Shown: piece by piece, positions 12,441 to 36,673 of the stretch
How the letters are laid out: each line of letters begins with the position of its first letter
How positions within the stretch are numbered: the stretch's first letter is position 1
Assembly (NCBI GenBank): GCA_019359235.1
Contig: JAHHHT010000002.1
Coordinates: 186,001-250,000, forward strand
Length of the DNA stretch: 64,000 bases
Direction of reading: 5' to 3'
Origin: Oscillatoria princeps RMCB-10
GTDB lineage: Bacteria; Cyanobacteriota; Cyanobacteriia; Cyanobacteriales; Oscillatoriaceae
Made by a program: the position numbers and the translations under genes
The notes under the pieces: model-generated
What the model was told of the DNA's origin: nothing
What the model saw: only the letters and a program-made list of their open reading frames with translations
The model's database searches: none

Positions 12441-13721
12441 TTACTTCGGCTCGACAATCGAACCCATAAACAAGACGGTGCCGGTTTCTTCGTCCCGAAT
12501 CGCACAGAAAAAGGGGCGGTCAACAATCATGGCGATGTCGGGCTCTCCGCCTCTAGTGCCCCCTATTGCCGTGACGCCAGCCGCTTCCGTGCCCTCTTCA
12601 CTCACGTCCAAAAATGTCTTGTGTTTAATTTTGCTAATCGCGAAACCTTTCGGAGTTATTTCTGTGAAATCTGCACCGGCATCAAAAACTTTCTCCATCC
12701 CCAGGGCTTTGAGACTTTCTTTCAGATCGATTTCATACTCCACATGGAAGCGAGGCAAACCGAGGATAACTCCCTTTTCTTCCGTCTCAAACTGGTCGAG
12801 CCATTTTTCCCAGTTCTGGGCGTTGAGGCTTTCGTAGAAGGTTTTGAGACTGACTCCCTGATGGGGGAGAAAGATGTACATGCTCAACCGGCCCTCGCCA
12901 TAGGGCAGGCCGATCGCCTGAAACATCTCATTCTTGTAGTAGGAAGCGTAATCAACCTTCTGGAACATCATCGGGTGCCGCTTCTGAGAGCCATCGCTCA
13001 AGGTAAAGGGGCGCTCTTGGGTTTTTTCTTTGGAAAAGGGCACCATCCAGTCAGCATGAAAATAGATAGCATTGATTAAAACAGCAATGGTTGAGGCGTC
13101 TATGTCATTTTTTTCCAGGATTTTATCTATCTTGCTGTTTGTACTTTGCTTCACCCAGCTGTTAATAACGTCCGGGGCATTGGGAGCGCCGAAGTCCACA
13201 TTCCTGACTTGGGCACCGTAAAAGTCCTGAGTTCTCTTGATAAATTCTGGCTTAAAGGGTTCGCCCTGCCGGCCCCACAGGGAGTTAGCAATGGCCAGGT
13301 TAACTTTGGCGTCCAGATTGGCAAGCGACGCCTTCAGGGCGGCATTGCCAAGGTTTACTTGTTGCAAGCTTAGCTGTTGCAATTCTAAGGTTTTGGCGAT
13401 TGCCTGCCCAGTTTGGCCACCGGCACCGTTGTAAGTCATGGCCAGCGCCAGCGCCAGACTGGCGGGAGAGATAAAAATATTGTGGTTAGCATCCCGCTTG
13501 CGGATTTCCGAGAACAGTTTGAAGCCAAATCTGGTATTAGCCGCAACCAGCTTTTCGCGCCAAGCCTCACCTGCAGCCTGCGCCCCAGCGCTCGATTGTG
13601 GCGCAGCGGCTGCAGAACCGGCGGGTTGCTGTGCCGGCACGGCAAAAGCCACACCCAGAACAGCTAAACCCATACCAGCGGCAACCATTATCCCAAAAGA
13701 ACTAAAAAAATGCTTTCTCAT
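12441..13721 (-). CDS. Secreted serpin (serine/cysteine protease inhibitor)
   Basis: 426 residues. Residues 1-32 are a signal peptide (M-R-K-H-F-F...G-V-A-F-A), followed by an Ala/Gln-rich linker and a full serpin domain: N-I-F-I-S-P-A-S-L-A-L-A-L-A-M, F-H-A-D-W, L-P-Y-G-E-G-R-L-S-M, L-P-R-F-H-V-E-Y. The hinge of the reactive loop is E-E-G-T-E-A-A-G-V-T-A-I, small residues as in inhibitory serpins, followed by G-G-T-R-G-G, so the scissile bond probably lies near the Arg; the end is R-P-F-F-C-A-I-R-D. It would trap a protease in the periplasm or outside the cell. A decayed second serpin lies immediately upstream on the same strand. Confidence 0.95.
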   Translation of the reverse strand: MRKHFFSSFGIMVAAGMGLAVLGVAFAVPAQQPAGSAAAAPQSSAGAQAAGEAWREKLVAANTRFGFKLFSEIRKRDANHNIFISPASLALALAMTYNGAGGQTGQAIAKTLELQQLSLQQVNLGNAALKASLANLDAKVNLAIANSLWGRQGEPFKPEFIKRTQDFYGAQVRNVDFGAPNAPDVINSWVKQSTNSKIDKILEKNDIDASTIAVLINAIYFHADWMVPFSKEKTQERPFTLSDGSQKRHPMMFQKVDYASYYKNEMFQAIGLPYGEGRLSMYIFLPHQGVSLKTFYESLNAQNWEKWLDQFETEEKGVILGLPRFHVEYEIDLKESLKALGMEKVFDAGADFTEITPKGFAISKIKHKTFLDVSEEGTEAAGVTAIGGTRGGEPDIAMIVDRPFFCAIRDEETGTVLFMGSIVEPK

Positions 13722-13726
13722 TTGGG

Positions 13727-14540
13727 TCAGCCCAATCGCCTGTGTTCTTGGGGATCTGCAACCGACCCCACAAATAATAGTGTTCCCGTTTGACTGTCGC
13801 GAATCGCGCAGGAGAAGGGGCTCCCCACCACCATGCTAAATGGCATCTCCACCCGCTCGCCCGCCGCCCTGTAGCCGCCACCCGTCACGGCTGCAGCTTC
13901 GGTGGCTTCTTCGCTCACCCCCACAAAAGTTTTGTGCCTCACCCGATCGAGGCAAGCCCTGTGCGGGCGTCATCCCTGAAAAATCTCCCCGCTGCCGGTC
14001 AAACGCCACCCCCATCCCCAAGGCTTTCAGGGCGTCATTTAGCGAGATATCATACTGCAATTTGAAGCGGGGCAGCACAATAGAACCTTCCTTGTACTGG
14101 AATTGCTTCATCCCCGAATCCCAGTTGTCGGCGTTCAAACTGTCGTAGAATCTTTGCAAATTGACTCCCTCTTTCGGTAAAAACACGTACAAACTCAGCC
14201 TTCCGTCACCATAAGCCAAGCTTATTTCCTGAAACTGCTCAGAATTCTGGCTTGAACGAGACATCCTTGTTCGCCCAAAGCGAGTTGGCAATCAGCAGCT
14301 GCATTTTCGCGTCCGCACTCAGCAGGGATGCTTTCAGTGCGGCGTATGCAGAGTTAACGTCTTGCTTGCCTCAGCTGCTGCAATCCTAAGGTTTTGGCTA
14401 TTGCCCGCCCAGTTTGGCCCCCGGCACTATTATAAGTCATGGCGAGTGCGTTAACCACACTAGCGGGAGAGATAAAAATGTTCAGGCTCGCATCCCGCTT
14501 GCGGATTTCCGAGAACAATAAGTATTAGCCCCACGAGCGC
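13727..14540 (-). pseudogene. Second serpin, decayed tandem copy
   Basis: Read on the minus strand, serpin text appears in order but in several frames: L-F-S-E-I-R-K-R-D-A-S-L-N-I-F-I-S-P-A-S near 14460-14525, I-A-N-S-L-W-A-N-K-D-V-S-F-K-P-E-F near 14245-14290, then E-Q-F-Q-E-I-S-L-A-Y-G-D-G-R-L-S-L-Y-V-F-L-P, and the reactive loop S-E-E-A-T-E-A-A-A-V-T with the end F-S-C-A-I-R-D. Compared with the intact neighbour about 105 codons are missing between K-P-E-F and Q-F-Q, and the frame shifts again before and after the H-K-T-F-V-G-V-S-E-E segment. No signal peptide is left. A tandem duplicate that has become a pseudogene. Confidence 0.85.
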
Positions 14541-16273: not shown

Positions 16274-16609
16274 ATGAAAAATCTGAACCGTGCGGTTAAA
16301 ATTGTTCAACCTTCAGGCATTTTAGACAAAAATAAGGCCCTTCAATTCCAGCGCCAGATTAGCGACGTTGTTGACGAGGGGGCCAACATTGTGTTAGTGG
16401 ATTTTCAGGATGTAACCTTTATGGACAGTTCTGGCCTTGGCGCTTTAGTTTCCGCATTAAAAACCGTGAGAGCCGCCAATGGTAAGCTCGCAGTCTGTTC
16501 AATCAACCATCAAATTAGAATCCTGTTTGAAATCGCCTGCGTAGATACATTGATTGAAATCTTTGCCAGCCAGGATGACTTTAAGAGCGCCGAATTTTTG
16601 GCGAAATAA
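16274..16609 (+). CDS. STAS-domain anti-sigma factor antagonist
   Basis: 111 residues, a single STAS domain of the SpoIIAA/RsbV type. The phosphorylation loop T-F-M-D-S-S-G-L-G-A-L is intact, with Ser52 the expected site. The kinase partner (19217-19720) would phosphorylate it and the phosphatase partner (16715-19066) would reactivate it. It is convergent with the phosphatase gene, so it is not in the same transcript. Related free STAS proteins in filamentous cyanobacteria (HmpV type) take part in hormogonium regulation; that link is only an analogy here. Confidence 0.92.
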   Translation: MKNLNRAVKIVQPSGILDKNKALQFQRQISDVVDEGANIVLVDFQDVTFMDSSGLGALVSALKTVRAANGKLAVCSINHQIRILFEIACVDTLIEIFASQDDFKSAEFLAK

Positions 16610-16714
16610 TTGCTGGCCTTATAGGGGTTTTGGGCCTGTTAGTCTGGAGTCTATCTCAAATCTCAAATCTCAAATCTAAAATCTCAAATCTCAGGGGCAG
16701 CGGGGAAAGCCAAG

Positions 16715-19066
16715 CTAAGGTGCAGCGCGAAACCTCACCTGCAGGAGAGACACGTCGTCATTAAAAGCACCTTTCCCCGTCAAACTCCGAAGCGACTGCA
16801 ACACTTGATCCAGGTTGAGCGGATTGACCCGATTGGAATCCGCCAGCCAGTCGATGAAAGCATCGAAGCTCCAAACCGTGCCATCCGGTTGCATAATTTC
16901 GTAAACCCCATCGCTAAAAATGTACAGGGTGCTGCCTTCTTCTACAGAATAGCAAGCATTGGCGTAGCTGGCATCGGGAAACATTCCAATCGGCAGACCG
17001 TTCGGGGTTTTCAGCTGTTTGACTCGCCAAGTCGCAGGCTCCCTTCCCGAGAGCAACAGTGCCGGCGGGTGCCCGGCGCTGGCACAAACCAGCTGGCGCT
17101 TTTGCCGGTTGTAAACCCCATACCAGATGGTAAAGTACATATTTCGCTGGCTTTCCATCTGGAAAGACTGGTTCAGGGCGTTGAGGACTTCACTGGGCTC
17201 GTAAAAATTAGTCTGGAGCCGGGAGCGCGAGCGCAGCAGGCTCAAAACAGAAACCGACAGCAGCGCCGAACCCAAGCCGTGTCCAGACACGTCCAGCAGA
17301 TAAATTGCCAAATGGTCTTGATCCAGCCAGTAATAGTCAAAGCAATCGCCCCCCAACTGTTGCGAGGGAATAAACCGGGCGTCAATCGCCACCGGCTCGG
17401 TTAAAGGGCGGGGCAAAAGCGAGCGCACATACTCAGCCCCTTCCGCCAATTCCGCCTGCAGCTTCGCCTCCGCCCGCTTGCGCTCAGTAATATCTATCCC
17501 CACAAACACCGCTGCCCGATCTTGCAGCCACTTCTTGGCCATCACCAAATGACTGCGGGGAGCGCCATCCAGTTGGGCATCAATTTCTACAGACGCTTCC
17601 TTATCCGGGGAAGCAAAAAACTCGCGCACAAATTCGCCAAACCTCGACTGGCGAAAGCCCACTTCTTGATTGGCAAAAGCCTCCAAGGGCAATTTGTAGG
17701 TCGCCGCTAAATGCCGGTTCACCCCCAGATAGCGCAAATCCGAGCTAATTAGCGACACCGTACCGGGAACCGCATCCAGCACCGCCTGCAGCTGGTCTTT
17801 TGCCAGCTGCAGCGTTTCCTCGGCCTGTTTGCGTCTGGTCACGTCCTGGACGAACCCCTCCACCCCCACCGGTCGCCCGTGGGCGTCGCTGAGGAGCCGC
17901 ACCGTTTCGGAAACCCAAATCACCGAGCCATCCCGCCGGCAGACAAGAGCCTCCCGCTCATCCACAAAGCCATCCGCTTTTAACCGGCGCAGGGACTCAG
18001 CCCAGTGCCCGGGCTCGACATAGAGTTGGGCAATATTTTCCACCCCCTTGAGGAACTCGGCTGGGGAGTCATAGCCGTAAATGCGAGCCAGGGCGGAGTT
18101 CGCCGTGCAGTAGCGCCCCTCCAAGGTGACTTGAAACAGCCCCTGCGCCGCATGTTCAAAAATTTGCCGGTATTTGCGAAGGGTGACATTGCGAAAAATC
18201 CATCGGGTGGCATAGGGTTTGCCATTTTCGCACAGGCAATTCACATTCCCTTCCACCCACACCGGCTCGGAGTCCTTGGTCAAAAAAATCATCTCCACCG
18301 GCTCGTGAGCTTCGATCAGCGAGAATTTTTCCACCTGCTGCCACAGCTGGCGATACTCGGGATGGAGAATATCCCACACCTTTAGCTGGCCCACTTCCTC
18401 TTCCGTATAGCCCAAGGTCTGCCGCCACGTCCGGTTGACATAGGCAAAGCCCCCGTCAGAAAGACGCACCGTTTGAATCAAAACCTGCGCCCTGTCGAGA
18501 AAATCCTGTAGCTGGGACTTGATATTTTCCATGTGCATCAGCTGCCGGCGGGAGTCCAGCAGAACCATTATCTGACGCGCCAGCATTTGCAGGGCATCTT
18601 GCTTGTCCGGACTCAAAGAGCGCGGCACGCAGTCCATGACGCACAAGATGCCCACCGCAAAGCCATCGGGCGCGATCAGCGGCGTGCCGGCATAAAACCG
18701 GATGTGAGGTTCCCCCACCACCAGGGGATTGCTGGCAAACCGGGCGTCCTTCAAGGTATCTCCGACAACAAAAACTCCGTCGTGCCCGATGGCGCTGGCG
18801 CTGAAAGCCATGATATCGCCTGACGCCCCTCCCCTAGTCCAGCCCACCTTTGATTTTACCCAGCACCGGTCAGAGTCAACCAAGCCGGTCAGCGCCATTG
18901 AGGTTCCGCAAATGTGGGCCGCTAGGCGCACCAGATCGTCAAATGCCGATTCCGCTGCCGGATCGAGTAGCTGATACCGCCGCAGGGCTTCAATTCTCTG
19001 GACTTCGTTAGCAGGCAGTGGTGCCTTTATCATTGGGGTGCGACCGGTTGCGAGAGAAATAACCAT
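16715..19066 (-). CDS. GAF/PAS-PP2C (SpoIIE/RsbU-type) serine phosphatase
   Basis: 783 residues. Order: a GAF-like domain after R-I-E-A-L-R-R-Y-Q-L-L-D (about 25-175), three PAS domains (about 185-300, 300-420 and 425-535, the second with R-R-D-G-S-V-I-W), a short coiled coil, and a C-terminal PP2C/SpoIIE domain with metal-binding Asp in L-G-G-D-C-F-D, L-L-D-V-S-G-H-G, and F-S-D-G-V-Y-E and N-D-D-V-S-L. It would dephosphorylate STAS-type antagonists in response to a signal sensed by GAF or PAS. It is the last gene of a minus-strand row: STAS-sugar transferase, kinase, phosphatase, with gaps of 93 and 150 bases. An ATG 11 codons further in is a possible alternative start. Confidence 0.93.
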   Translation of the reverse strand: MVISLATGRTPMIKAPLPANEVQRIEALRRYQLLDPAAESAFDDLVRLAAHICGTSMALTGLVDSDRCWVKSKVGWTRGGASGDIMAFSASAIGHDGVFVVGDTLKDARFASNPLVVGEPHIRFYAGTPLIAPDGFAVGILCVMDCVPRSLSPDKQDALQMLARQIMVLLDSRRQLMHMENIKSQLQDFLDRAQVLIQTVRLSDGGFAYVNRTWRQTLGYTEEEVGQLKVWDILHPEYRQLWQQVEKFSLIEAHEPVEMIFLTKDSEPVWVEGNVNCLCENGKPYATRWIFRNVTLRKYRQIFEHAAQGLFQVTLEGRYCTANSALARIYGYDSPAEFLKGVENIAQLYVEPGHWAESLRRLKADGFVDEREALVCRRDGSVIWVSETVRLLSDAHGRPVGVEGFVQDVTRRKQAEETLQLAKDQLQAVLDAVPGTVSLISSDLRYLGVNRHLAATYKLPLEAFANQEVGFRQSRFGEFVREFFASPDKEASVEIDAQLDGAPRSHLVMAKKWLQDRAAVFVGIDITERKRAEAKLQAELAEGAEYVRSLLPRPLTEPVAIDARFIPSQQLGGDCFDYYWLDQDHLAIYLLDVSGHGLGSALLSVSVLSLLRSRSRLQTNFYEPSEVLNALNQSFQMESQRNMYFTIWYGVYNRQKRQLVCASAGHPPALLLSGREPATWRVKQLKTPNGLPIGMFPDASYANACYSVEEGSTLYIFSDGVYEIMQPDGTVWSFDAFIDWLADSNRVNPLNLDQVLQSLRSLTGKGAFNDDVSLLQVRFRAAP

Positions 19067-19216
19067 GATAGTACCTGCTTTCCGCCACTACCAGAACCTA
19101 CAAGCTCTTTCTTAACATCTAAATTGACATGCCGCCTGACAGGCGAAATCCTCCCCTAGGTTGATTTTCATCTCTTCTGCCAGGAAGATTATTAGCGCCC
19201 ATTATCAAGCGCAACT

Positions 19217-19720
19217 TCACTCTCCGGTAATTCTTTTTCGCAGCAGCAGGCAATTGCGACCGTCGGGAGTGCGCCTGTAATAAAGCTCATCCGTCAGAGC
19301 TTTCATAATTCGCAGTCCCCTGTGATGTTCGTCCCAGAGATCTATGGGTCTTTTTAACAGCTCTTCCACATAAGCTTCCAAATCAAACGGATCGCCCCGA
19401 TCCCAAATTCGCATCTCCACGTAGTGCGCAAAAACTATCACCTCCAGCTCGATCGGGGTTGTCTGGGGCAAGTGGCAGTGAGCGTGGGTCACCGCATTGG
19501 TAAAGCCTTCTACCAAGGCGGTTTCGCACTCCCACCACTCCTTGCACGAGAGCGGCGCTGTGTTGAACTGCTCGAACCATCGCAAAACATCGTCTAAAGC
19601 CGTCAGATCCGTACAGACTTGAAGCTGCGCTTCCTTGAGCGGTCGCTCATTTGCCGCCGGCTGTATTCCCCTCCCGGAGGCTAATCCTTTCCACCAGCTG
19701 CCAATGTTTCCTAACATCAT
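19217..19720 (-). CDS. Anti-sigma-type serine kinase (RsbW/SpoIIAB-like HATPase)
   Basis: 167 residues with the HATPase fold of anti-sigma regulators: E-T-A-L-V-E-G-F-T-N-A-V-T-H-A-H (N box), I-W-D-R-G-D-P-F-D (G1 box), H-H-R-G-L-R-I-M (G2 box). Expected to phosphorylate STAS antagonists using ATP and to bind its target when they are phosphorylated. It lies between the phosphatase and the STAS-sugar transferase on the same strand, which fits a partner-switching operon. No sigma factor gene lies nearby. Confidence 0.92.
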   Translation of the reverse strand: MMLGNIGSWWKGLASGRGIQPAANERPLKEAQLQVCTDLTALDDVLRWFEQFNTAPLSCKEWWECETALVEGFTNAVTHAHCHLPQTTPIELEVIVFAHYVEMRIWDRGDPFDLEAYVEELLKRPIDLWDEHHRGLRIMKALTDELYYRRTPDGRNCLLLRKRITGE

Positions 19721-19813
19721 CCTGTCCCTCCAAAATGTGCAATTTATAATCCTGAATCAAGACTCAAGACTCAAAAATTAATATTTTTCCTCTCTCAGCC
19801 CTCAATTCCTAAT

Positions 19814-20815
19814 TCAATAAGCGCCACTGTTTTTCTGGAATAAGCGCAGGACGGTTTTCAAAATTAGCTCCACGTCATACCGGAGGCTCCAGTTTTTTTG
19901 GTATTTCAAATCCAGGCGGATGACATCCTCAAAACTGCGCACCTGAGAGCGCCCGTTCACTTGCCATTCGCCTGTCATTCCCGGTTTGACATCTAAACGC
20001 TGCCATTCTGGAACCTCATAGCGCTCAACTTCATCCGGTGTGGGCGGTCTGGTGCCGACCAGACTCATCTCCCCTTTGAGCACGTTCCAAAACTGGGGCA
20101 GTTCGTCCAGGCTCGTCCGCCGCAGAAACCGGCCCACCCGCGTAATCCGGGGGTCGTTTTCATTCTTAAACAGGGGACCCTGTACTTGATTAGCGATTTG
20201 GGATTTGAGCGCCTCCGCATTCACGCACATGGAGCGGATTTTCCACATGCGAAATCGCCGGCCCATCCAGCCGCAGCGAATTTGGCTGAAGAAAATCGGG
20301 CCCGGACTGTCCAGTTTAATGGCAATGGCAATCGGAATCAGCAAAACCGCCGTAATCGCCAAACCCACCAGCGCACCGGCAACGTCTATCCAGCGTTTCA
20401 CCCAGGAGCGCACAGAGGGGTGGGTCGCCGGCAGCGAGCTTTTCACAGATGAGCTGCGGACCTGCTTGCTCGGAGTCTCCGCTGCCCCCTCGATGGTCAG
20501 CATCTGCTCCAGTCCCGTTATGGACAGCACTGACCTCACCTGCGGCTGGACATTCCGCAGCACTAATTTAATCCCCAGCTGCTGGGTTGTTCTGAGATTG
20601 TTGACTAAGGCACCGATGCCACTGCTGTCTATGAACGTGGTCTGGCCAAAATCTAGGAGGATTTGGCTGGGATAGGGACTCTCTTGGCAAAGCTGCAGGC
20701 AGGTTTGCTTAAAGGCTACCGCTTCCAGCACGCTCAAGCGAGGGGGCAACTGAACCAAGGGAGTTTCGTTCGAGAATGAAATCCGAAAATTTTGGTCTTG
20801 GGGTTGGTTTACCAT
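19814..20815 (-). CDS. STAS domain fused to exopolysaccharide-initiating sugar transferase
   Basis: 333 residues from the ATG at 20815, which has GAGGG six bases upstream; an ATG at 20833 lacks this. Residues about 10-110 form a STAS domain with an intact switch loop, [11 protein letters not shown]. After a Ser-rich linker comes a bacterial sugar transferase (WcaJ/WbaP catalytic part): one membrane helix in [10 protein letters not shown], then [33 protein letters not shown], and M-S-L-V-G-T-R-P-P. Such enzymes transfer a sugar phosphate to undecaprenyl phosphate and start capsule or slime synthesis. The next genes encode an RsbW-like kinase and a PP2C phosphatase, so the fusion suggests that phosphorylation of the STAS part controls polysaccharide synthesis. 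That control is inference. Confidence 0.93.
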
Positions 20816-20833
20816 GTAACCCTCATGTTGCAA

Positions 20834-21263: not shown

Positions 21264-21294
21264 CAAAAAAAGCCAGCCCACTGGCATGCTGGCT
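21264..21294 (-). terminator. Intrinsic terminator, minus strand
   Basis: On the minus strand AGCCAGC, a ten-base loop, and GCTGGCT form a seven-pair stem immediately followed by a run of Ts. It would end transcripts coming from the small gene at 21537-21923, about 240 bases upstream. Confidence 0.6.
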
Positions 21295-24412: not shown

Positions 24413-26653
24413 TTACGAAACAGCAGACCGTTTTGGCAGACCGTTGTCTGGGTCGGGTATCAACTCACCAGAAATAGAAGCCGGCTTGTCTAGCAGCTCT
24501 AGCGGGGATTCCGGCGTGTTTGTTGCCAGCTGATTTTGCAGCGGGTTTGGCGTTCCCAACTTGCCGGTTTGATTCCACAAAAGCATCGTTAATAGCCCGT
24601 CCACCAAACCGTTATGGCTGCCGTTACCGCCGCCGACTAAAATATCAGGAATCAGGCGGACTTTGCGGTCGCCGATAATTTGCATCAGCTGCATGGCGGT
24701 GTAAGGTTGCGAGCCCAACGCTCCCACACCGGCACGGTAGGTTTCCGCTTTGGCGGTGCCGGTGGCGCGGATAGATTCCGCTTCTGCAGTGGCTTTCAGG
24801 CGGATAGACTCAGCCTCACCGGCAGCTTTAATCCGGATAGATTCCGCCTCGCCGGTCACTTCTTTAACTTTCGCAGTCGCCTTGAGTTCAGCAATCTGCA
24901 CGCCTTGTTCAGATTTTACCACTTCTTGCTGGATGTCAGCTTTCGCCTTGAGTTCAGCAATCTTCACACCTTGCTCAGCTTTCACCATATCTTGCTGGAT
25001 GTCCGCCAGCGCAGTGGATCGCACCAGTTCTTGTCGCTGCGTCTGCGCCATCTGCTGCACTTCATAGGTTTTCTGCTGCTCCTGAGCAATTTTGCGGTCG
25101 GTTTGAGTTTGCATCAGCGTCGCCGGCGGCTGGATGTCGCCAATTAAAGTGTCGATCGCCTGCACGTCATAAGCTCGCAGCGCTGTTTTAATATACTCAG
25201 CCGCCTCAGCCTGACGCTCGCTGCGAGCGCTGAGAAAGTCGAGCACGGTGTAGTCTTGAGCGGAGTTGCGGAAATAGTTGCCAATGGTGGGTTCCAAAAC
25301 GTGGTCTACCAGATTTTGCATGGAGCCAACGCGGGAGATCACCTTGGGGGCGTCCAAAGCGCCGACGTGGATAATCTGCGCCACTTCCAAATCAAACGCA
25401 AACCCATCTCTGGAGCGCACGGTCAGGGAGGCGAGTTTGGAGTCGTAGTTGTGGCGCTCGCTGCGGGCTGACCAGTTGAGCACGATATTAGTAGTCGGCA
25501 CCAGTTCGACTTTCATCACCCGCATGTTGACGGGGTGTTTTCCCGGGTAAAGGGGTTCTGTCCACACGCCTTTGTGTCCGGGGCGCACCAAATCGCCGTG
25601 GGTGAAGGCGGCTCCGCTGACGTCTTCGTGGGCTTTACCGATGTAGGAAATCACCACGCCGACGTAGCCGATGGGAATTTCGGTCATGGCGACTTGCTCA
25701 ACCCGGACAAACCAGGGGTTGAGGTTCCAGGAACCGGAGAGGAGAATTTGCTCTTGCAAGCCGCGCCGCCCGCCTTTTTCGATGAATTTCTGCCCATTTT
25801 GGAAGTTTTCGTGGGCGGGGACGACAGGACCTGCAATTTCGCCCGCTTCTATGGAAGTGCCGTCTAGGGTGGTGACGATGCCCACTTTGTCGGAGGCGAC
25901 GGCATAAACCTGCAGCCGCTCTGGGCTTGTGCCGTGCTGGCTGGCGTTGGCGGCGGTGATGATGGTGAACAGGGCGGTGTTGATGCGGTAGGTGCCGGCG
26001 GTGAGGAAGCCGATTTGCCGGCCTTTTTCGCCCCCGCCGGTGAGGAATTTGCGGGCGTCTTGGAAGTTGTCGCAGCTCACCACTTTGCCGAGGATGCGTT
26101 CTGGCGGGATAGATGCGCCATCGGCGGCGACAATTAGGGCGATTTCGCCTTGGGGGATTTCTATCACCGACTCTTTGCGAATGGCATACTGCCAGGGCCA
26201 ATAGGCCCAGTGCCAGCCGGGAGCCAGGGTGTCTGCTTGGTAGCCGGCTTCGCCATGCAGGGCGATCTGGCGACCGGGCGGGAGGCTGCTGGTGGAAAAT
26301 TTCTTGGCAACTATGCCGACTTCTCGCTCGCCGATCACCACTAGACCGGAGGCGAAAGCGATTGCGCCCAAACCGCCGACAATAATAATGGGAACGACTG
26401 CCCAACTTAGAGTGTCGGCGGCGCTCACTTGCGCCACAGCCGGTTGCGGAACTGACGCGGTGAGGTTTGCCCGATTGGTGTCCAAGGCTGTTGGGGAACT
26501 CTCCGCCCGAGCCGGCTCGATGCTGCCGGTTGGTGTGAGGGCACCCACCAAAGGTGCTCCTGCAGAGATGGCGAGAGATGCCAGTAGGGATGCTGCTATC
26601 TGAGCGGGAAGCCCAAGCCGGCTCTGGCGCATCTTAGCGAGAAAACTTTTCAT
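24413..26653 (-). CDS. SPFH/Band 7 (flotillin-like) membrane protein
   Basis: 746 residues. The N-terminus (1-45) is a hydrophobic signal-like segment, then an Ala/Pro-rich stretch and a membrane helix (about 83-108, V-V-P-I-I-I-V-G-G-L-G-A-I-A-F-A). Two related blocks of about 75 residues follow (A-D-G-A-S-I-P-P-E-R-I and L-D-G-T-S-I-E-A-G-E-I), then a Band 7 domain to about 520 and a long coiled coil whose units A-E-L-K-A, G-E-A-E-S-I-R-x-K-A repeat four to five times. Flotillin-like scaffolds order membrane microdomains and proteases. The ATG is preceded by GGGAGACTCC. An HicB-like gene and a HicA-like remnant lie just upstream on the same strand, without an obvious functional link. Confidence 0.88.
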   Translation of the reverse strand: MKSFLAKMRQSRLGLPAQIAASLLASLAISAGAPLVGALTPTGSIEPARAESSPTALDTNRANLTASVPQPAVAQVSAADTLSWAVVPIIIVGGLGAIAFASGLVVIGEREVGIVAKKFSTSSLPPGRQIALHGEAGYQADTLAPGWHWAYWPWQYAIRKESVIEIPQGEIALIVAADGASIPPERILGKVVSCDNFQDARKFLTGGGEKGRQIGFLTAGTYRINTALFTIITAANASQHGTSPERLQVYAVASDKVGIVTTLDGTSIEAGEIAGPVVPAHENFQNGQKFIEKGGRRGLQEQILLSGSWNLNPWFVRVEQVAMTEIPIGYVGVVISYIGKAHEDVSGAAFTHGDLVRPGHKGVWTEPLYPGKHPVNMRVMKVELVPTTNIVLNWSARSERHNYDSKLASLTVRSRDGFAFDLEVAQIIHVGALDAPKVISRVGSMQNLVDHVLEPTIGNYFRNSAQDYTVLDFLSARSERQAEAAEYIKTALRAYDVQAIDTLIGDIQPPATLMQTQTDRKIAQEQQKTYEVQQMAQTQRQELVRSTALADIQQDMVKAEQGVKIAELKAKADIQQEVVKSEQGVQIAELKATAKVKEVTGEAESIRIKAAGEAESIRLKATAEAESIRATGTAKAETYRAGVGALGSQPYTAMQLMQIIGDRKVRLIPDILVGGGNGSHNGLVDGLLTMLLWNQTGKLGTPNPLQNQLATNTPESPLELLDKPASISGELIPDPDNGLPKRSAVS

Positions 26654-30906: not shown

Positions 30907-31057
30907 TTCGATGCGGGAAAGAGAAAAAACCTACCCTTGTAAGGGTAGGGGGGTGGGGTTCACCCCACTGATCTGCCACCGGCAATGTTTTGGCGGATTG
31001 AGGATTGCGCCCCCGGCTTGCAGCAAACCGAAATCCGCCCCCAGGCTGGGTTTTATT

Positions 31058-34000
31058 ATGAACGACCGGCAAGATTTAAATTTAATATCAGAAGACTCTC
31101 ACCGGCACCCTCAAGAGCGCCGGTCAAATAATCCTAGAAACCAGGTTTCTTTGGGGACTGACAGCGAACAAACGGTCGATTTTGGCAAAGAAACCCGGTT
31201 TCTTAACCCCGAAAGCGAAGACTTGACCAGTGCTCTAGATGCGTGTCAGGCACAGCTGCGCCAAACCCAAACAGAACTGGAGCGATCCCGGCAATACCAG
31301 GCCGTCTTCGAGCTGGCGTTGGACGCCATCCTGATTGCCGGCGATCGGGGCGAGTATGTGGAAGTCAACCCCGCCGCCTGCGAACTGTTCGGCTTGCCGG
31401 CAGATCAACTCATCGGGCGCTGCATAGCAGACTTCGCAACCGCCGGTTTCGACTTCCCGCAGGCGTGGCGAAGCTTCCTGGAAAAAGGACAGGAATCTGG
31501 CGAATTCCACCTGCAGCGTCCAGACGGAACTCAACGTGTGGTTGAGTATGCCGCCACCGCCAACATTGTCCCCCACCGGCACCTGTCCGTTTTGCGGGAC
31601 ATAACCCAGCGCGTACAGGCGCAACAGGCACTGCAAGAGAGCGAGCAGCGCCTGCAAGCTATTATAGATAATTCCCCCGCACTTATCTACCTCAAAGACA
31701 CTACAGGCCGGTATATTTTGGTTAACCGCCAGTTTGAAATCAACTGCCACGTTACCAGAGAGCAAGCCAAAGGCAAGACCGACTGGGATATCTTCTCCGA
31801 AGAAACCGCAGACAGGTTTGCGATCAATGACAAAAAGGTGCGGTCATCGGGAGTTCCTTTAGAGTTTGAAGAAATACTCGATCTTGACAGCGGCACCCAC
31901 ACGTTCCTGTCGCTCAAATTTCCGCTTTATAACTCCACCGGCACTCCCTACGCCGTCTGCGGCATCTCCACCGACATCACCCAGCGCGTACAAGCAGAGC
32001 GAGCTTTACGCCAAAGTCAAGCACTCCTGGAAAACCTGTTAGAAACCCTGCCGGTGGGCGTTTGTATAGCAGACGCCACAGGTCGCCTTTTGCACGCCAA
32101 TCAAGCCAGCCAAAAAATTTGGGGGGGTGCCCAGTATATAGGAATTCAGCAATACAGCGAATATAAAGGGTGGTGGCACGAGACCGGCAAGCGGATAGAA
32201 CCCGCAGAGTGGCCAATTGTAAAAGCCATCGCTACAGGAGAATCTTATCTCAATGATGTCACAGACATCGAGAACTTGCAAGGTCAGCGCAAAACCCTTC
32301 TCAACTCAGCAGTGCCCCTGCGCAGCGAAAGCGGAGAAATCATCGGAGGCATTGCCGTCAATCAGGACATCACCGAATATGAAGAGACGCGACATCTCGC
32401 CTCTTTACACGAGAAGGCGCTCTGGGAAAACCAGCGCTTAATTCAGCAAATTGCCCAGGCAACGCCGGCAATGCTGTATCTCTATGACCTGATCGAACAG
32501 CGCAATGTTTACGCCAACCGGCAGCTGACAGAGATTGTCGGCTACTCGCCGGAGGACGTGCAAAACATGGGAGCGGGGTTTCTGCAAAAACTCATTCACC
32601 CTGAGGATTTAGCCACAGTTGCTGCCAGCGCTGATCGATTGGTAGCAGCGCCCGACGGTGAAATTGTTGAAGTTGAGTACCGCATGCGACACGCCCTCGG
32701 TGAGTGGCGCTGGCTTTACAGTCGAGATACAGTATTTACCAGAACCGCTGACGGCGCACCGCAACTGATTCTCGGCACAGCGCTCGACATCACCCACCGC
32801 AAACAGGTAGAAGAAGAATTGCAGCAATACAGGCAACACTTGGAGCGGCTGGTTGAAAAGCGCACCGCCGAACTGACGAGAGCCAATCAGCAGCTGCAGC
32901 AGGAAATCGCCGAGCGCGAGCTGATAGAAACCCAATTAATCGCCTCCGCACAGAAACTGGAGGTGGTGAGCGAGCGCCTAGCCACAATCACCGGCAATAT
33001 TCCCGGCGTTGTCTATCGCATGATCGTTCACGCAGATGGCAGAATTTCCATACCCTACATCAGCGCCGGCGTGCGGGAACTCCTCGGAATCGAACCCGAT
33101 GACATCACCGCCAACCCAAACCTGATTTTAGACCGGATTCATTCCGACTGCCGGCAGGGGTTCGACCGGGCGATGAGATTCTCAGCGCAGACTCTAGCAC
33201 GCCTGAAGCACGACTGTCGCGTCATCTCCACTTCCGGGCAAGAAAAATGGGTTCGCGCCCTGGCACGACCGCACCGGCTCCTTTGTGGCGATGCTGTCTT
33301 TGACGGCTTAGCGCTTGAGATCACCGCCCGCAAAGCAGCCGAAGAAGCGCTGCAGCAGAGTGAAGCGAAAAATCGAGCCCTAGTCGCCGCGCTTCCCGAT
33401 CCCCTGTTTCGCATCCGCAACGATGGCACCTATGTGGGCTTCATCCCTGCAGATCGCTTCCAGCCCTCAGTACCGCCCAGTCAGTTTTTAGGCAAAAAAG
33501 TCACAGAAATCCTGCCCGAACCAGTCGCTGGGCAGTTAATGAGCGCCATAGCGCTCGCCACAGAAAGCGGAAGCGCGCAAGTCTGCGAGTACCAGCTGGC
33601 CGAAGACGGTCATCCAAAGCATTACGAGACTCGCATCGCCGTCTGCGGCGCAGATGAAGTCTTAGCGATTGTGCGCGACATCACCAAGCGCAAGCGAGCC
33701 GAAGTTGCCCTGCAAGAAAGTGAGGAGCGGTTCCGCCAGCTCGCCGAAAACCTCACCGACGTCTTCTGGATGGTTACAGCCGACAGAACCCAGACGCTCT
33801 ACGTCAGTCCTGCTTACGAGCGTATCTGGGGACACACTCGCGAGAGTTTGTACCGGCAGCCCGCATCTTTCAGGGATGCCATCCACCCAGAAGATCGCCA
33901 GGGCTTCATTGCTGCCTTTGAAAAAGAGTTCCGGGGAGATTTCGACCAAGAATATCGGATTGTCAGACCTGACGGGTCAATTCGCTGGATAAGAGAGCGC

Positions 34001-36673
34001 GGCTTTCCAGTTCGCAACGACAGCGGAGAAATCTACCGCATCGCCGGCATTGCCGAAGACATCACCGACAGGAAGCGAGCGGAAGAAGAGCGAGACCGCT
34101 TTTTCAACTTGTCTCTCGATATCCTGGCTGTCGCTGGGGCGGACGGCTATTTCAAGCGCGTCAATCCTGCCGGCACACTCATCTTAGGATACACCACGGC
34201 AGAGTTTTTGTCAATACCTATTATTGATTTTATTCATGCCGACGACCGCGCCCGCACAAGCCATGAGTTCCAGCACAAATTAATCACCGGCGAACCCAGC
34301 CTTAACCTGGAAAATCGCTACCGCTGTAAAGATGGGTCGTACAAGTGGCTGGCGTGGACAGCAGTGCCGGTGCCGGCAGACCGATTAACCTATGCAGTTG
34401 CCCGCGACATGACCGAGCGCAAGCAAGCCGAGTCAGCCCTGCGAGACAGCGAACAAAAATTCCGAACCCTAGCGGAAAACACGCCCGATATTATCGCTCG
34501 CTTTGATAGAGAGCTGCGCTATGTCTATGTCAACCCAGCTGTTCAAAAGGTAACTGGACTGTCTCCCCAGGAAGTCACAGGCAAAACCAACCGAGAGTTA
34601 GGCATGCCAGACACCCAGGTATCTGACTGGGAAAAAGTGTTGCGGCAAATTTTTAAAACCGCCCATGAAACTGTGATAGAATTAGAGTATAACTTATCTA
34701 AAGGAGCCAGAATTGAGCGCTCGGGTTCCAGAATAAAGACCTCCGGCTCCGTAATTAAGAAACGGGGAGCCAGTCATGAATTAGCCTCCCGAATTCAGAA
34801 ACCGTGCCCCCTGCTTCACAAATTAGACAGCCAAATTAATGCAGCAGCAACCAGAATTCAGGAATCAGGAGCCAGAATTCAGATATCCGGAGCCAGGATT
34901 CAGGAATCAGGAGCCAGAATTCAGAATACTCTCAATTCTCCCTTCTTGAAGTCACAGGATTCTGAAGTCAGATATTATCAAACGCGAATTGTACCGGAAT
35001 TGGCGGCAGATGGAACAGTTGCATTCATCCTGTGCGCCACCCGCGATATCACCGAGCGCAAGCAGATGGAAGAGTCGCTGCGAGTGGCTCAAGCCCGCCT
35101 GCACCACCTGCTCACCGCCAGCCCATCTGTTATTTACAGCTCCGTGGCATCGGGAGATGGCGGCATCACTTTTATGGGTGAGAATGTCACTTCCATGCTG
35201 GGCTACGAAGCGCGGGAATTCTTGTCAGATTCCCATTTTTGGACTGACCGGCTGCACCCGCAAGAGGCAGAGCGGGTCACAGCCAAGCTGTCAGAGCGGC
35301 TGTCAGGAAACTGTCAAGCCCTGGAATACCGCTTCCTGCACAAAGATGGAACCTACCGCTGGATGTATGACCAAGTGCAGGTGGTGCGAGACGCCCAAGG
35401 CAACCCCTTAGAATTCGTCGGTTCCTGGACAGACATCACGGAGCGCAAGCTAGCGGAGGCTTTATTGCAGTATCGGGTTGTTCTCGAACAGCTGATCGGC
35501 GACATCTCCACCCACTTCCTGAATCTGCCACCGGCTGAGACTGACCGGGGAATCCACCAAGCGCTGCACGCCCTCGGAGAATTTCTCGGCGTTGAGCGCA
35601 CTTATGTGTTCCAGTTCGCTGAGAGTGGCGCGACGATCGACAATACCCACGAGTGGGTAGCTCCGGGGATTGAACCGCGCACCTGCCGGTGGCAAAATGT
35701 GCCTGCCGGTGCCTTGTCCCCGGTTTGGGACACTATCAAGCGGGGAGAAGTGCTGGCGCAATCTCCCGCAACAGAGGAATTTCAGCTTGAAGGCATTCAA
35801 TCGCTGCTCTATGTGCCGCTGATCGCCGGCGGTACTGTGGTAGGATTTGTCGGGTGCGACGCGGTGCGCACTGCCAAAACCTGGACGGAAGACCACATCG
35901 CCTTGCTGAGAATTGTCGGAGAAATTTTTGTCACCGCCATCGAGCGCCGCCGGTTCGAGCAGGAACTGGAGTTGCGGGCGGCAGATTTGGCCCGTTCCAA
36001 TGCCGAGTTAGAGCAGTTTGCCTATGTCGCCTCCCACGACTTGCAAGAGCCCCTGCGTGCTGTCACCGGCTACACGCAACTCCTAGCCCGGCGCTACTCT
36101 GGCCAACTCGACGCCAAAGCAGACGAATACATCGCCTTCGCTGTTGAGGGAGCCACCCGCATGCAGCAGCTGATCAAGGACTTGCTGATGTATTCCCGGG
36201 TGGGAACGCGGGGGAAAGAGCTCGAGCCGGTGGACTTTCTGACGGTGTTCCAGGCGGCTGTGGCCAACCTGGAGGTGGCTGTGGCAGAAAGTGGCGCGAC
36301 TCTCACTCACGGCGACTTGCCAACTGTCAAGGGGGATTTCACCCAACTCGCCCAGCTATTGCAAAATCTTCTCAGCAATGCCCTCAAGTACCGCAGCGAC
36401 CAAGCGCCGGTGATTCATGTCAGCGCTCAGCAACAAAACGGTAACATGCGGTTCTCCGTGCGCGATAATGGTATAGGGATCGACCCAAAATACAGCGATC
36501 GCATTTTTCAGCTGTTTCAGCGCTTGCACACCCGCGACGAGTATCCCGGCACCGGTATCGGTCTGGCTATTTGCAAGAAGATTGTTGAAAGGCACGGCGG
36601 TCGCATTTGGGTCGAGTCCGCACCCGGTCAGGGATCGACTTTCTATTTCACGATTCCAGGGGAACAGGTTTAA
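31058..36673 (+). CDS. Ten-PAS, GAF sensor histidine kinase
   Basis: About 1871 residues from the ATG at 31058 (MNDRQDLNL). The frame is open to 30911, but that part reads repeat DNA. Order: about ten PAS/PAC domains (31.28-35.45 kb), many ending in D-I-T-x-R-K-x-A; a GAF domain (35.46-35.95 kb); HisKA of the phytochrome type (V-A-S-H-D-L-Q-E-P-L-R) and HATPase_c (G-T-G-I-G-L-A-I-C-K). No membrane helix, so a cytosolic multi-input sensor. The bases at 31137-31205 are AGAAACC repeats used as codons. At about 34700-34960 some 85 residues (units A-R-I-Q-E-S-G) of tandem GGAGCCAGAATTCAG repeats split the ninth PAS domain without a frame break. The kinase type and the following Rcp1-like gene suggest a sensor-regulator pair. 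Confidence 0.93.
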   Translation: MNDRQDLNLISEDSHRHPQERRSNNPRNQVSLGTDSEQTVDFGKETRFLNPESEDLTSALDACQAQLRQTQTELERSRQYQAVFELALDAILIAGDRGEYVEVNPAACELFGLPADQLIGRCIADFATAGFDFPQAWRSFLEKGQESGEFHLQRPDGTQRVVEYAATANIVPHRHLSVLRDITQRVQAQQALQESEQRLQAIIDNSPALIYLKDTTGRYILVNRQFEINCHVTREQAKGKTDWDIFSEETADRFAINDKKVRSSGVPLEFEEILDLDSGTHTFLSLKFPLYNSTGTPYAVCGISTDITQRVQAERALRQSQALLENLLETLPVGVCIADATGRLLHANQASQKIWGGAQYIGIQQYSEYKGWWHETGKRIEPAEWPIVKAIATGESYLNDVTDIENLQGQRKTLLNSAVPLRSESGEIIGGIAVNQDITEYEETRHLASLHEKALWENQRLIQQIAQATPAMLYLYDLIEQRNVYANRQLTEIVGYSPEDVQNMGAGFLQKLIHPEDLATVAASADRLVAAPDGEIVEVEYRMRHALGEWRWLYSRDTVFTRTADGAPQLILGTALDITHRKQVEEELQQYRQHLERLVEKRTAELTRANQQLQQEIAERELIETQLIASAQKLEVVSERLATITGNIPGVVYRMIVHADGRISIPYISAGVRELLGIEPDDITANPNLILDRIHSDCRQGFDRAMRFSAQTLARLKHDCRVISTSGQEKWVRALARPHRLLCGDAVFDGLALEITARKAAEEALQQSEAKNRALVAALPDPLFRIRNDGTYVGFIPADRFQPSVPPSQFLGKKVTEILPEPVAGQLMSAIALATESGSAQVCEYQLAEDGHPKHYETRIAVCGADEVLAIVRDITKRKRAEVALQESEERFRQLAENLTDVFWMVTADRTQTLYVSPAYERIWGHTRESLYRQPASFRDAIHPEDRQGFIAAFEKEFRGDFDQEYRIVRPDGSIRWIRERGFPVRNDSGEIYRIAGIAEDITDRKRAEEERDRFFNLSLDILAVAGADGYFKRVNPAGTLILGYTTAEFLSIPIIDFIHADDRARTSHEFQHKLITGEPSLNLENRYRCKDGSYKWLAWTAVPVPADRLTYAVARDMTERKQAESALRDSEQKFRTLAENTPDIIARFDRELRYVYVNPAVQKVTGLSPQEVTGKTNRELGMPDTQVSDWEKVLRQIFKTAHETVIELEYNLSKGARIERSGSRIKTSGSVIKKRGASHELASRIQKPCPLLHKLDSQINAAATRIQESGARIQISGARIQESGARIQNTLNSPFLKSQDSEVRYYQTRIVPELAADGTVAFILCATRDITERKQMEESLRVAQARLHHLLTASPSVIYSSVASGDGGITFMGENVTSMLGYEAREFLSDSHFWTDRLHPQEAERVTAKLSERLSGNCQALEYRFLHKDGTYRWMYDQVQVVRDAQGNPLEFVGSWTDITERKLAEALLQYRVVLEQLIGDISTHFLNLPPAETDRGIHQALHALGEFLGVERTYVFQFAESGATIDNTHEWVAPGIEPRTCRWQNVPAGALSPVWDTIKRGEVLAQSPATEEFQLEGIQSLLYVPLIAGGTVVGFVGCDAVRTAKTWTEDHIALLRIVGEIFVTAIERRRFEQELELRAADLARSNAELEQFAYVASHDLQEPLRAVTGYTQLLARRYSGQLDAKADEYIAFAVEGATRMQQLIKDLLMYSRVGTRGKELEPVDFLTVFQAAVANLEVAVAESGATLTHGDLPTVKGDFTQLAQLLQNLLSNALKYRSDQAPVIHVSAQQQNGNMRFSVRDNGIGIDPKYSDRIFQLFQRLHTRDEYPGTGIGLAICKKIVERHGGRIWVESAPGQGSTFYFTIPGEQV

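Follow-up and report, generated by a model that had tools for sequence, protein, structure and literature searches.

Partner switches are taught as controls of sigma factors, and both SpoIIAA/SpoIIAB/SpoIIE and RsbV/RsbW/RsbU act on one. The same three protein families and the same serine loop occur in a locus of Oscillatoria princeps RMCB-10 in which a STAS domain is joined to a sugar transferase, raising the question of what is being switched there. We consider it probable that the locus encodes a partner-switching module with the glycan-initiating enzyme itself, and not a sigma factor, as its output. While the SpoIIA and Rsb systems control a sigma factor, no sigma-factor domain was detected among the 17 proteins scanned, which lie in the interval 3090 to 36673 and are a subset of the ORFs of the window (the whole analyzed stretch of 64,000 nucleotides). 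This agrees with the claim of a preliminary description of this DNA that no sigma factor is nearby, and the system was therefore not filed as a sigma-controlling member.

The locus and its fused STAS-transferase protein

All four genes of the set described earlier were recovered at their positions with agreeing Pfam domains (Table 1). The three minus-strand genes are separated by gaps of 93 and 150 bp, neither of which contained a terminator-like site in a consensus scan, and the free STAS gene is convergent to them. The hairpin upstream of the fusion gene is a possible transcription-unit boundary, in a region where the scan returned 10 terminator-like sites compared to a shuffled mean of 7.1. 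Within the fusion gene, the ATG corresponding to residue 7 of the TTG reading, with GAGGG shortly upstream, is the likelier start because many relatives begin at this methionine.

Table 1. Features of the locus, in window coordinates (residue numbers follow the TTG reading unless stated otherwise)
Feature	Position	Strand	Basis or remark
Free single-domain STAS gene	16274..16609	+	Pfam STAS, E 6e-19
GAF-PAS-SpoIIE (PP2C-like) phosphatase gene	16715..19066	-	Pfam; SpoIIE PF07228, E 6e-45
RsbW-like GHKL serine kinase gene	19217..19720	-	HATPase_c_2 PF13581, E 1e-21
STAS-sugar transferase fusion gene	19814..20833	-	339 aa from TTG; 333 aa from likelier ATG 20815
Monotopic phosphoglycosyl transferase domain, residues 145-339	19817..20401	-	PF02397 Bac_transf, E 2e-66, matching residues 146-332
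Asp243-Glu244, catalytic dyad of the enzyme family	20102..20107	-	Conservation in 156 distinct proteins
Fused STAS domain, about residues 28-118	20480..20752	-	PF01740/PF13466, E 7e-15, matching residues 32-114; SpoIIAA alignment
Predicted phospho-serine codon, Ser70 (Ser64 from ATG), first Ser of D-S-S-G	20624..20626	-	
Terminator-like hairpin and T run, upstream of the fusion gene	21272..21285	-	Consensus scan only

The D-S-S-G motif, reported earlier as intact, is kept in both the fused and the free STAS, and the alignment of the fused domain to SpoIIAA covers the phospho-serine loop. Among 156 distinct fusion proteins the column of Ser70 was serine in every case and was the only fully invariant column of a STAS domain that has a mean pairwise identity of 50%, compared to 75% for the transferase half. 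The latter aligns with WbaP (chains 30us, 9s7s and 8t53) from chain residue 279 onwards, and the long N-terminal part of WbaP sits where the STAS domain is found in the fusion. The Asp-Glu dyad, whose role in this transferase family is stated for CapM in PMC6441080, was present in 154 of the 156 proteins (the exceptions being one gap and one Glu-Gln), while Arg262 and Pro263 of the R-P motif were each found in 155. The fusion therefore carries the three features that define PF02397 membership (Bac_transf domain, Asp-Glu and R-P motif), and from its family the transferase domain is expected to contain a re-entrant membrane segment. Its scores stayed below the WcaJ/WbaP equivalog cut-offs (TIGR03023, 242.4 bits vs 410.75; TIGR03022, 215.8 vs 403) and that of TIGR03025 (294.6 vs 295.55), as the match is mainly to the C-terminal domain of the fusion. 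The enzyme probably starts the synthesis of sugar slime in many cyanobacteria.

The family profile of the kinase matches the structures of RsbW and SpoIIAB (anti-sigma F factor), and Glu71 and Asn75, which lie in the N-box of a GHKL kinase, were the same in all 27 aligned sequences. The phosphatase carries a GAF domain, at least two PAS domains and a SpoIIE domain (residues 583-779, profile positions 2-191 of 192) and is a probable sensor and antagonist of the kinase. Three parts of a partner-switching system, namely a STAS domain with the serine of D-S-(S/T)-G, an RsbW/SpoIIAB-type GHKL kinase and a PPM/SpoIIE phosphatase, are present in this locus.

Distribution and gene neighbourhood of the fusion

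In a sample of 386 cyanobacterial genomes, the search for the STAS-PF02397 architecture that had been proposed for this locus found full-length fusions at 97 places (window included), spread over 87 genomes, and none in the other 299; the fusion was also present in four of 119 genomes from the gammaproteobacterial order of a purple sulfur bacterium. Absence from close relatives, named in the preliminary description as a sign of an assembly error, was not observed: identity was 95% in the single genome of the same genus that gave a full-length match and 76-78% in five genomes of the same family, and this conservation rules out an assembly artefact. An ordinary sigma-factor partner switch that adjoins and is fused to a transferase by chance would be composed of the same classical sigma-control parts (RsbW, PP2C and STAS), but is highly improbable, since beyond the window's own family the fusion occurs in 16 sampled cyanobacterial families and in genomes of a second phylum, and since no sigma factor was found among the scanned window proteins. 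In a transferase tree with many weak forks and unsettled bootstrap values, unfused enzymes nest among fused ones, by which a single origin of the fusion is neither supported nor excluded. No description of a STAS-sugar transferase fusion was present among the literature matches listed (titles and abstract beginnings, partly for a share of the matches).

An RsbW gene was located on the same strand and at most 1.2 kb downstream of the fusion in 38 of 95 fetched loci, in 30 of these within 200 bp or overlapping, and the arrangement occurred in 11 of 16 families. It was far more frequent outside one Nostoc-like family (33 of 46 loci) than inside (5 of 49), and no RsbW was found anywhere in 35 control loci with unfused transferases. 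Among the 57 fusions lacking RsbW just downstream are 44 of the 49 in the Nostoc-like family. A six-frame scan of these 44 loci revealed no remnant of a decayed RsbW, so that the kinase must either act in trans or the switch is unused. A neighbouring RsbW was likewise not found at the four gammaproteobacterial fusion loci. Sets of kinase, phosphatase and free STAS were observed in two layouts, one in the window, Laspinema, Oscillatoria L034 and L200, the other in L209, L216, L218 and L219, and the convergent orientation of the free STAS gene recurs in Laspinema (L032, L065), Oscillatoria L034 and L200. Even though the free STAS gene is part of the set in Laspinema, Oscillatoria, L200 and four Nostoc-like loci, it lay within the fetched flanks of only nine of the 95 fusions and is thus no general neighbour of the fusion.

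Over 54 pairs, RsbW distance correlated with that of the fused STAS at r 0.90, or 0.61 once the transferase half was controlled for, and with that of the transferase half at r 0.84, or 0.24 once the STAS was controlled for. RsbW thus diverges more in step with the fused STAS than with the transferase half, in a test by which shared ancestry and interaction are not fully separable. None of the 54 fusion-adjacent kinases grouped within either of two other RsbW lineages, which were drawn from genomes of the same kinds, and the RsbW of the group C PP2C-RsbW pair, likely HmpU-HmpW as guessed from gene order only, forms a lineage separate from them. These data also bear on the idea that the STAS domain stands in for the N-terminal domain of WbaP-type enzymes, with a role in structure or dimerisation and with a serine that is kept for folding and not phosphorylated. 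The larger WbaP-like relatives with a long N-terminal part at the same position, and the 57 fusions that keep the serine with no kinase just downstream, are consistent with such a role, but we regard it as improbable because no STAS position other than Ser70 is fully invariant, because RsbW repeatedly adjoins the fusion, in places together with phosphatase and free STAS, and none of the 35 controls, and because RsbW co-diverges with the fused STAS.

A candidate switch acting on the initiating enzyme

Taken together, the invariant serine, the recurrent adjacent RsbW with its control, the co-divergence, the exopolysaccharide context elsewhere and the absence of a sigma factor among the scanned window proteins make the initiating enzyme the best-supported switched object. 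To this extent the preliminary description stands, whereas phosphorylation and an effect on polysaccharide are what we infer. The RsbW-like kinase would phosphorylate the conserved serine of the fused STAS and the GAF/PAS-regulated SpoIIE-type phosphatase would reverse this upon a signal, with transferase activity set by whether the STAS domain is free, bound to the kinase or phosphorylated. When active, the transferase would attach the first sugar-1-phosphate to the lipid carrier, thereby starting exopolysaccharide synthesis. By analogy to SypA and HmpV the unphosphorylated form is expected to be the active one, phosphorylation or kinase binding turning initiation off, possibly via changed STAS pairing as in CapS. 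The fusion and the adjacent kinase in many genomes suggest that slime production may be switchable directly at the enzyme. Where encoded, the free STAS possibly competes for and titrates the same kinase.

In canonical partner switching it is the STAS protein that titrates the kinase, and the fusion could correspondingly be an input, its membrane STAS-transferase titrating the kinase according to the status of precursor or lipid carrier while the target of the kinase is the free STAS or some other effector in trans and the enzyme is not switched. In the window, Laspinema and four Nostoc-like loci the set includes a free STAS, and the window's genome, in which 12 matches to STAS exceeded the Pfam cut-off and seven to RsbW-like kinases reached E 1e-16 or better, offers other partners. 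Non-canonical cases of partner switching are described in PMC8256260. An input role nevertheless appears rather unlikely, as a free STAS flanks only nine of 95 fusions and the scanned window proteins include no sigma factor.

With regard to the polysaccharide that would be controlled by switching the enzyme, no other polysaccharide gene was detected by Pfam among the 17 window proteins scanned (positions 3090-36673), while some other fusion loci lie in exopolysaccharide clusters with genes for a Wzx-like flippase, GT2, PssD/PssE-like or Poly_export proteins. A table entry of 70.4%/8e-163 for hpsS (Npun_R5614) of Nostoc punctiforme (PMC10581220) fits a protein of the fusion's length, on which basis identity with the fusion was considered and is not claimed. 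The hpsU acetyltransferase is in one cluster with hpsS (PMC10830646), and an hpsU-like acetyltransferase was not seen by eye near the fusion in three Nostoc-type loci (L033, L041 and L053).

Comparison with known systems

The STAS protein SypA of Vibrio fischeri is phosphorylated on a conserved serine, its unphosphorylated form promotes polysaccharide biofilm, and its authors report no evidence of action as an anti-sigma antagonist (PMC4517449). It shares with the fusion a STAS domain with conserved serine and a tie to polysaccharide, but is a free STAS whose partner SypE combines kinase and phosphatase in one protein, whereas here the STAS is fused to the initiating transferase. HmpU/HmpV/HmpW of Nostoc punctiforme, a set comprising a phosphatase, the STAS protein HmpV and an anti-sigma-factor-like kinase and linked to motility and polysaccharide, resemble the window set in having STAS as output. 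HmpV is treated as a STAS-domain-only protein (PMC8256260 and PMC6495340), and the group C kinase that is probably HmpW, by the gene order mentioned above, is of the separate lineage. As far as the available text of these papers and of PMC4517449 extends, SypA and HmpV are STAS outputs acting on polysaccharides with the target left unknown. A STAS domain covalently within an initiating transferase, encoded in many genomes beside its probable kinase, would represent a concrete class of target.

In CapK/CapS, too, a STAS domain is joined to an output domain, and a neighbouring GHKL kinase phosphorylates its corresponding serine (PMC13373217). The output of CapS, however, is a DNA-binding repressor, and the HTH-STAS-GHKL protein CapK is activated by single-stranded DNA. 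CapM, the monotopic initiating transferase of the Staphylococcus aureus capsule, has its activity raised by the CapAB kinase and lowered by PknB. In contrast to the proposed switch, tyrosine or eukaryote-type kinases phosphorylate the enzyme itself, with no STAS or RsbW named in the accessible part of PMC6441080.

If correct, switching at the initiating enzyme would let cyanobacteria decide quickly and post-translationally when lipid carrier and carbon are to be spent on slime, with a bearing on biofilms, blooms and gliding motility. XssQ, a STAS protein, is a regulator of synechan; a link to it was dropped, the word STAS being absent from the three listed papers that name XssQ. As a tentative and rather doubtful extension, the fusion might serve as a Rosetta stone for a control of the first membrane glycan step by GHKL kinase, PPM phosphatase and STAS that is general in bacteria, in which case HmpV and SypA would each act on an initiating transferase or another polysaccharide synthase of their own cell. 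A STAS gene adjoins an unfused transferase at two loci (L082 and L083), and in a Nostoc-like genome (L272) a cellulose-synthase-like gene has an RsbW/PP2C/STAS module next to it, arrangements which fit this extension without proving it.

Organization of the predicted switch genes in the window

The predicted switch comprises three co-oriented genes, running from 20833 down to 16715, and a fourth that is convergent on them (see table). The two halves of the fusion were matched by the NCBIfam models for an anti-sigma factor antagonist and an exopolysaccharide glycosylphosphotransferase, and the WcaJ, WbaP and EPS_sugtrans models, which match mainly the C-terminal enzyme domain, fell short of their cut-offs, EPS_sugtrans by a single bit. 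WbaP structures aligned with the enzyme half, SpoIIAA aligned with the fused STAS half across the phospho-serine loop, and a profile of the kinase family matched the RsbW and SpoIIAB structures. Since many relatives begin at the methionine numbered 7 when counting from the TTG, translation of the fusion likely starts at the corresponding ATG. The gaps between the three minus-strand genes (93 and 150 bp) contained no terminator-like site in a consensus scan; the hairpin found upstream of the fusion comes from this type of scan only, in which site counts were near the shuffled mean. A Pfam scan of 17 window proteins from the interval 3090 to 36673 detected no sigma factor. Elsewhere in the window, a serpin-like reading frame noticed by eye just upstream of a complete serpin gene looks like a decayed second copy.

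Features of the window and of related loci, with coordinates
Feature	Location	Strand	Description
Gene 1 (fusion)	window 19814..20833	-	N-terminal STAS domain joined to bacterial sugar transferase domain (Pfam)
Likely start of fusion	window 20815	-	ATG
Gene 2	window 19217..19720	-	RsbW-like GHKL kinase (Pfam)
Gene 3	window 16715..19066	-	GAF/PAS protein with C-terminal SpoIIE-type phosphatase (Pfam)
Gene 4	window 16274..16609	+	lone STAS domain (Pfam)
Hairpin	window 21272-21285		terminator-like
Serpin gene	window 12441-13721	-	complete
Serpin-like frame	window 13836-14291	-	shorter than the serpin gene
Band-7/SPFH protein	window 24413-26653	-	746 residues
Histidine kinase	window 30911-36673	+	1920 residues, many PAS domains and a GAF domain
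Scytonema control locus	L082:7385-8624		free STAS gene and unfused transferase
Nostoc control locus	L083:8001-9136		free STAS gene and unfused transferase
Four-part protein, window's own genome	L239:3999-5999 (G000:C21)	+	PssE-PssD-STAS-transferase, loop D-S-M-A

Distribution of the fusion and its linkage to RsbW

In the window's genome and 39 relatives (40 genomes in all), STAS and transferase shared a single frame at 23 loci, one of which was truncated by a contig end. Seven genomes of the family to which the window belongs gave a full-length match, and each of them carried an RsbW gene directly downstream and a GAF/PAS gene after it, these loci stopping short of the phosphatase domain; the eighth genome (66% complete) gave no such match. 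In 386 evenly sampled cyanobacterial genomes, full-length fusions were found at 97 places in 87 genomes, one place with an in-frame stop, and none in the other 299; since scoring was limited to five candidates per genome, second copies may have gone unnoticed. The fusion was also present at 45 loci among 80 named matches kept from the GTDB species collection, with carriers including Nostoc, Calothrix, Planktothrix, Microcystis, Laspinema, Okeania, Synechococcus and Cyanobium as well as the purple sulfur bacterium Rhabdochromatium marinum. Four full-length fusions were found in 119 genomes of the order of this bacterium, itself included; all four had the D-S-S-G loop, and RsbW was absent from all four of these gammaproteobacterial loci. 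The transferase tree is compatible with one or more origins of the fusion.

Of the 97 places, 95 were fetched together with about 5 kb on either side, or less where a contig ended. A same-strand RsbW gene lay within 1.2 kb downstream of the fusion in 38 of these loci, spread over 11 of 16 families, and 30 of the 38 genes overlapped the fusion or started within 200 bp. This linkage was found at 33 of 46 loci outside the large family f33, termed Nostoc-like from its resemblance to named Nostoc loci, and at five of 49 inside it. It was seen at 12 of the 45 named loci and at 17 of the 23 from the window genome and its relatives, the three locus sets sharing lineages and some genomes. Neither RsbW nor the phosphatase occurred in any of 35 control loci around the nearest unfused transferases (flanks up to 8 kb). 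A STAS gene was present in three of these, directly upstream of the transferase in a Scytonema and a Nostoc locus, an arrangement that is the unfused counterpart of the fusion. The other 57 fetched fusions had no adjoining kinase, and no RsbW remnant was found in 44 Nostoc-like fusion loci. Each of 14 genomes searched afterwards, 12 of them from f33, encoded at least two RsbW-like genes, so that a kinase acting in trans is possible for such fusions.

Fusion, kinase, phosphatase and free STAS recurred together in two layouts. One is window-like (Laspinema, Oscillatoria and locus L200); in the other (L209, L216, L218 and L219), the free STAS is the third gene on the strand of the fusion and the phosphatase gene is convergent. 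Locus L222 had all but the free STAS, and in L215 kinase, phosphatase and STAS lay upstream of the fusion with no kinase downstream. A response-regulator receiver replaced GAF/PAS in the phosphatases of L209 and L215 and that of L200 carried PAS domains, which indicates a varying input to a constant core.

Conservation of the predicted switch serine and co-divergence with the kinase

An alignment was made of 156 distinct fusion proteins out of 168, with the repeated short loci L111-L139 excluded and four long and one partial protein included. The first serine of D-S-S-G, which we take to correspond to the residue that is phosphorylated in SpoIIAA and RsbV, was serine in all 156 and was the sole fully invariant STAS column, at a mean pairwise identity of 50% in STAS and 75% in the enzyme half. 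A report on CapS, a STAS-repressor fusion, calls its Ser54 equivalent to this phospho-serine (PMC13373217). The 95 fetched places encode 83 distinct proteins, whose loop was D-S-S-G in 30/30 with RsbW downstream and in 50/53 without, the others being D-S-S-A (two) and D-S-C-G (one). The Asp-Glu dyad was intact in 154 of the 156 proteins; the exceptions were a gap in the partial L026 and Glu-Gln in the four-part L239, which comes from the same genome as the window.

In a tree of 75 RsbW proteins, none of the 54 fusion-adjacent kinases fell inside groups B or C, two further RsbW lineages whose genomes belong to the same families. Group A, in which RsbW is encoded next to a phosphatase and a free STAS, lay near them and was not clearly separated, so the tree does not establish a single clade for the fusion-adjacent kinases; the long-branched L212 fell outside with weak support, and the tree program warned of meeting long branches. 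Over the 54 fusion-kinase pairs, kinase distances correlated with those of the fused STAS at r 0.90 and of the transferase at 0.84, or 0.61 and 0.24 with the other half held constant, and 0.61 was reached in 0/1000 permutations. Because permutation leaves shared ancestry in these values and saturation may differ in the transferase, which evolves more slowly, this co-divergence is support, not proof, for a pairing of kinase and fused STAS. Separately, an RsbW-like gene in seven loci of Nostoc-like genomes and the window's own (L270, L274, L277, L278, L281, L287 and L288) lies near genes that, from their N-termini, are presumably petB/petD, in some cases also near a GT4-like gene.

Polysaccharide context and proposed mechanism

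No polysaccharide genes were found among the window neighbours scanned. In L209, the region upstream of the fusion encoded a Wzx-like flippase, two enzymes of the GT2 family, PssD and a PssE-like protein that scored below its cut-off. L073 carried genes for a flippase, a GT2 and a pyruvyl transferase, with a Poly_export gene on the opposite strand. L236 (G362) encoded a four-part PssE-PssD-STAS-transferase protein, as apparently did L237 (G211) and L238 (G298), judged by length and sequence. These neighbours and four-part proteins point to exopolysaccharide initiation as the role of the fusion. These three keep the catalytic pair, unlike L239, their homologue in the genome of the window, which looks degenerate.

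We propose that the kinase would add a phosphate to the fused STAS and that the phosphatase would take it off again, whereby a sensed signal would set glycan initiation at the enzyme itself; the free STAS, where its gene exists, may be a competitor. In the respective reports, SypA is active in its serine-to-alanine and inactive in its serine-to-aspartate form by a mechanism given as unknown (PMC4517449), HmpV is active when dephosphorylated on a target given as unknown (PMC8256260, PMC6495340), phosphorylation of the fused STAS breaks the CapS dimer (PMC13373217), and kinases can raise or lower the activity of CapM, a monotopic initiating transferase of S. aureus (PMC6441080). By analogy with SypA and HmpV, we tentatively expect the unphosphorylated fusion to be the active form, with less confidence than we hold in the switch itself. 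The individual parts of the module are already known: like the fusion, CapS joins STAS to an output, and CapM is an initiating transferase under kinase control, as is proposed for the fusion. Their combination, a partner switch built into a glycan-initiating enzyme and conserved across cyanobacteria, is apparently new, no description of it being among the matches listed in the open-licence literature.

In three Nostoc-like loci (L272, L273 and L286), a module of RsbW, receiver-type phosphatase and free STAS adjoins a glycosyltransferase gene. Pfam classes the one in L272 as cellulose-synthase-like, and those in L273 and L286 have a look-alike N-terminus by eye. The arrangement is another connection of partner switching to a polysaccharide synthase.
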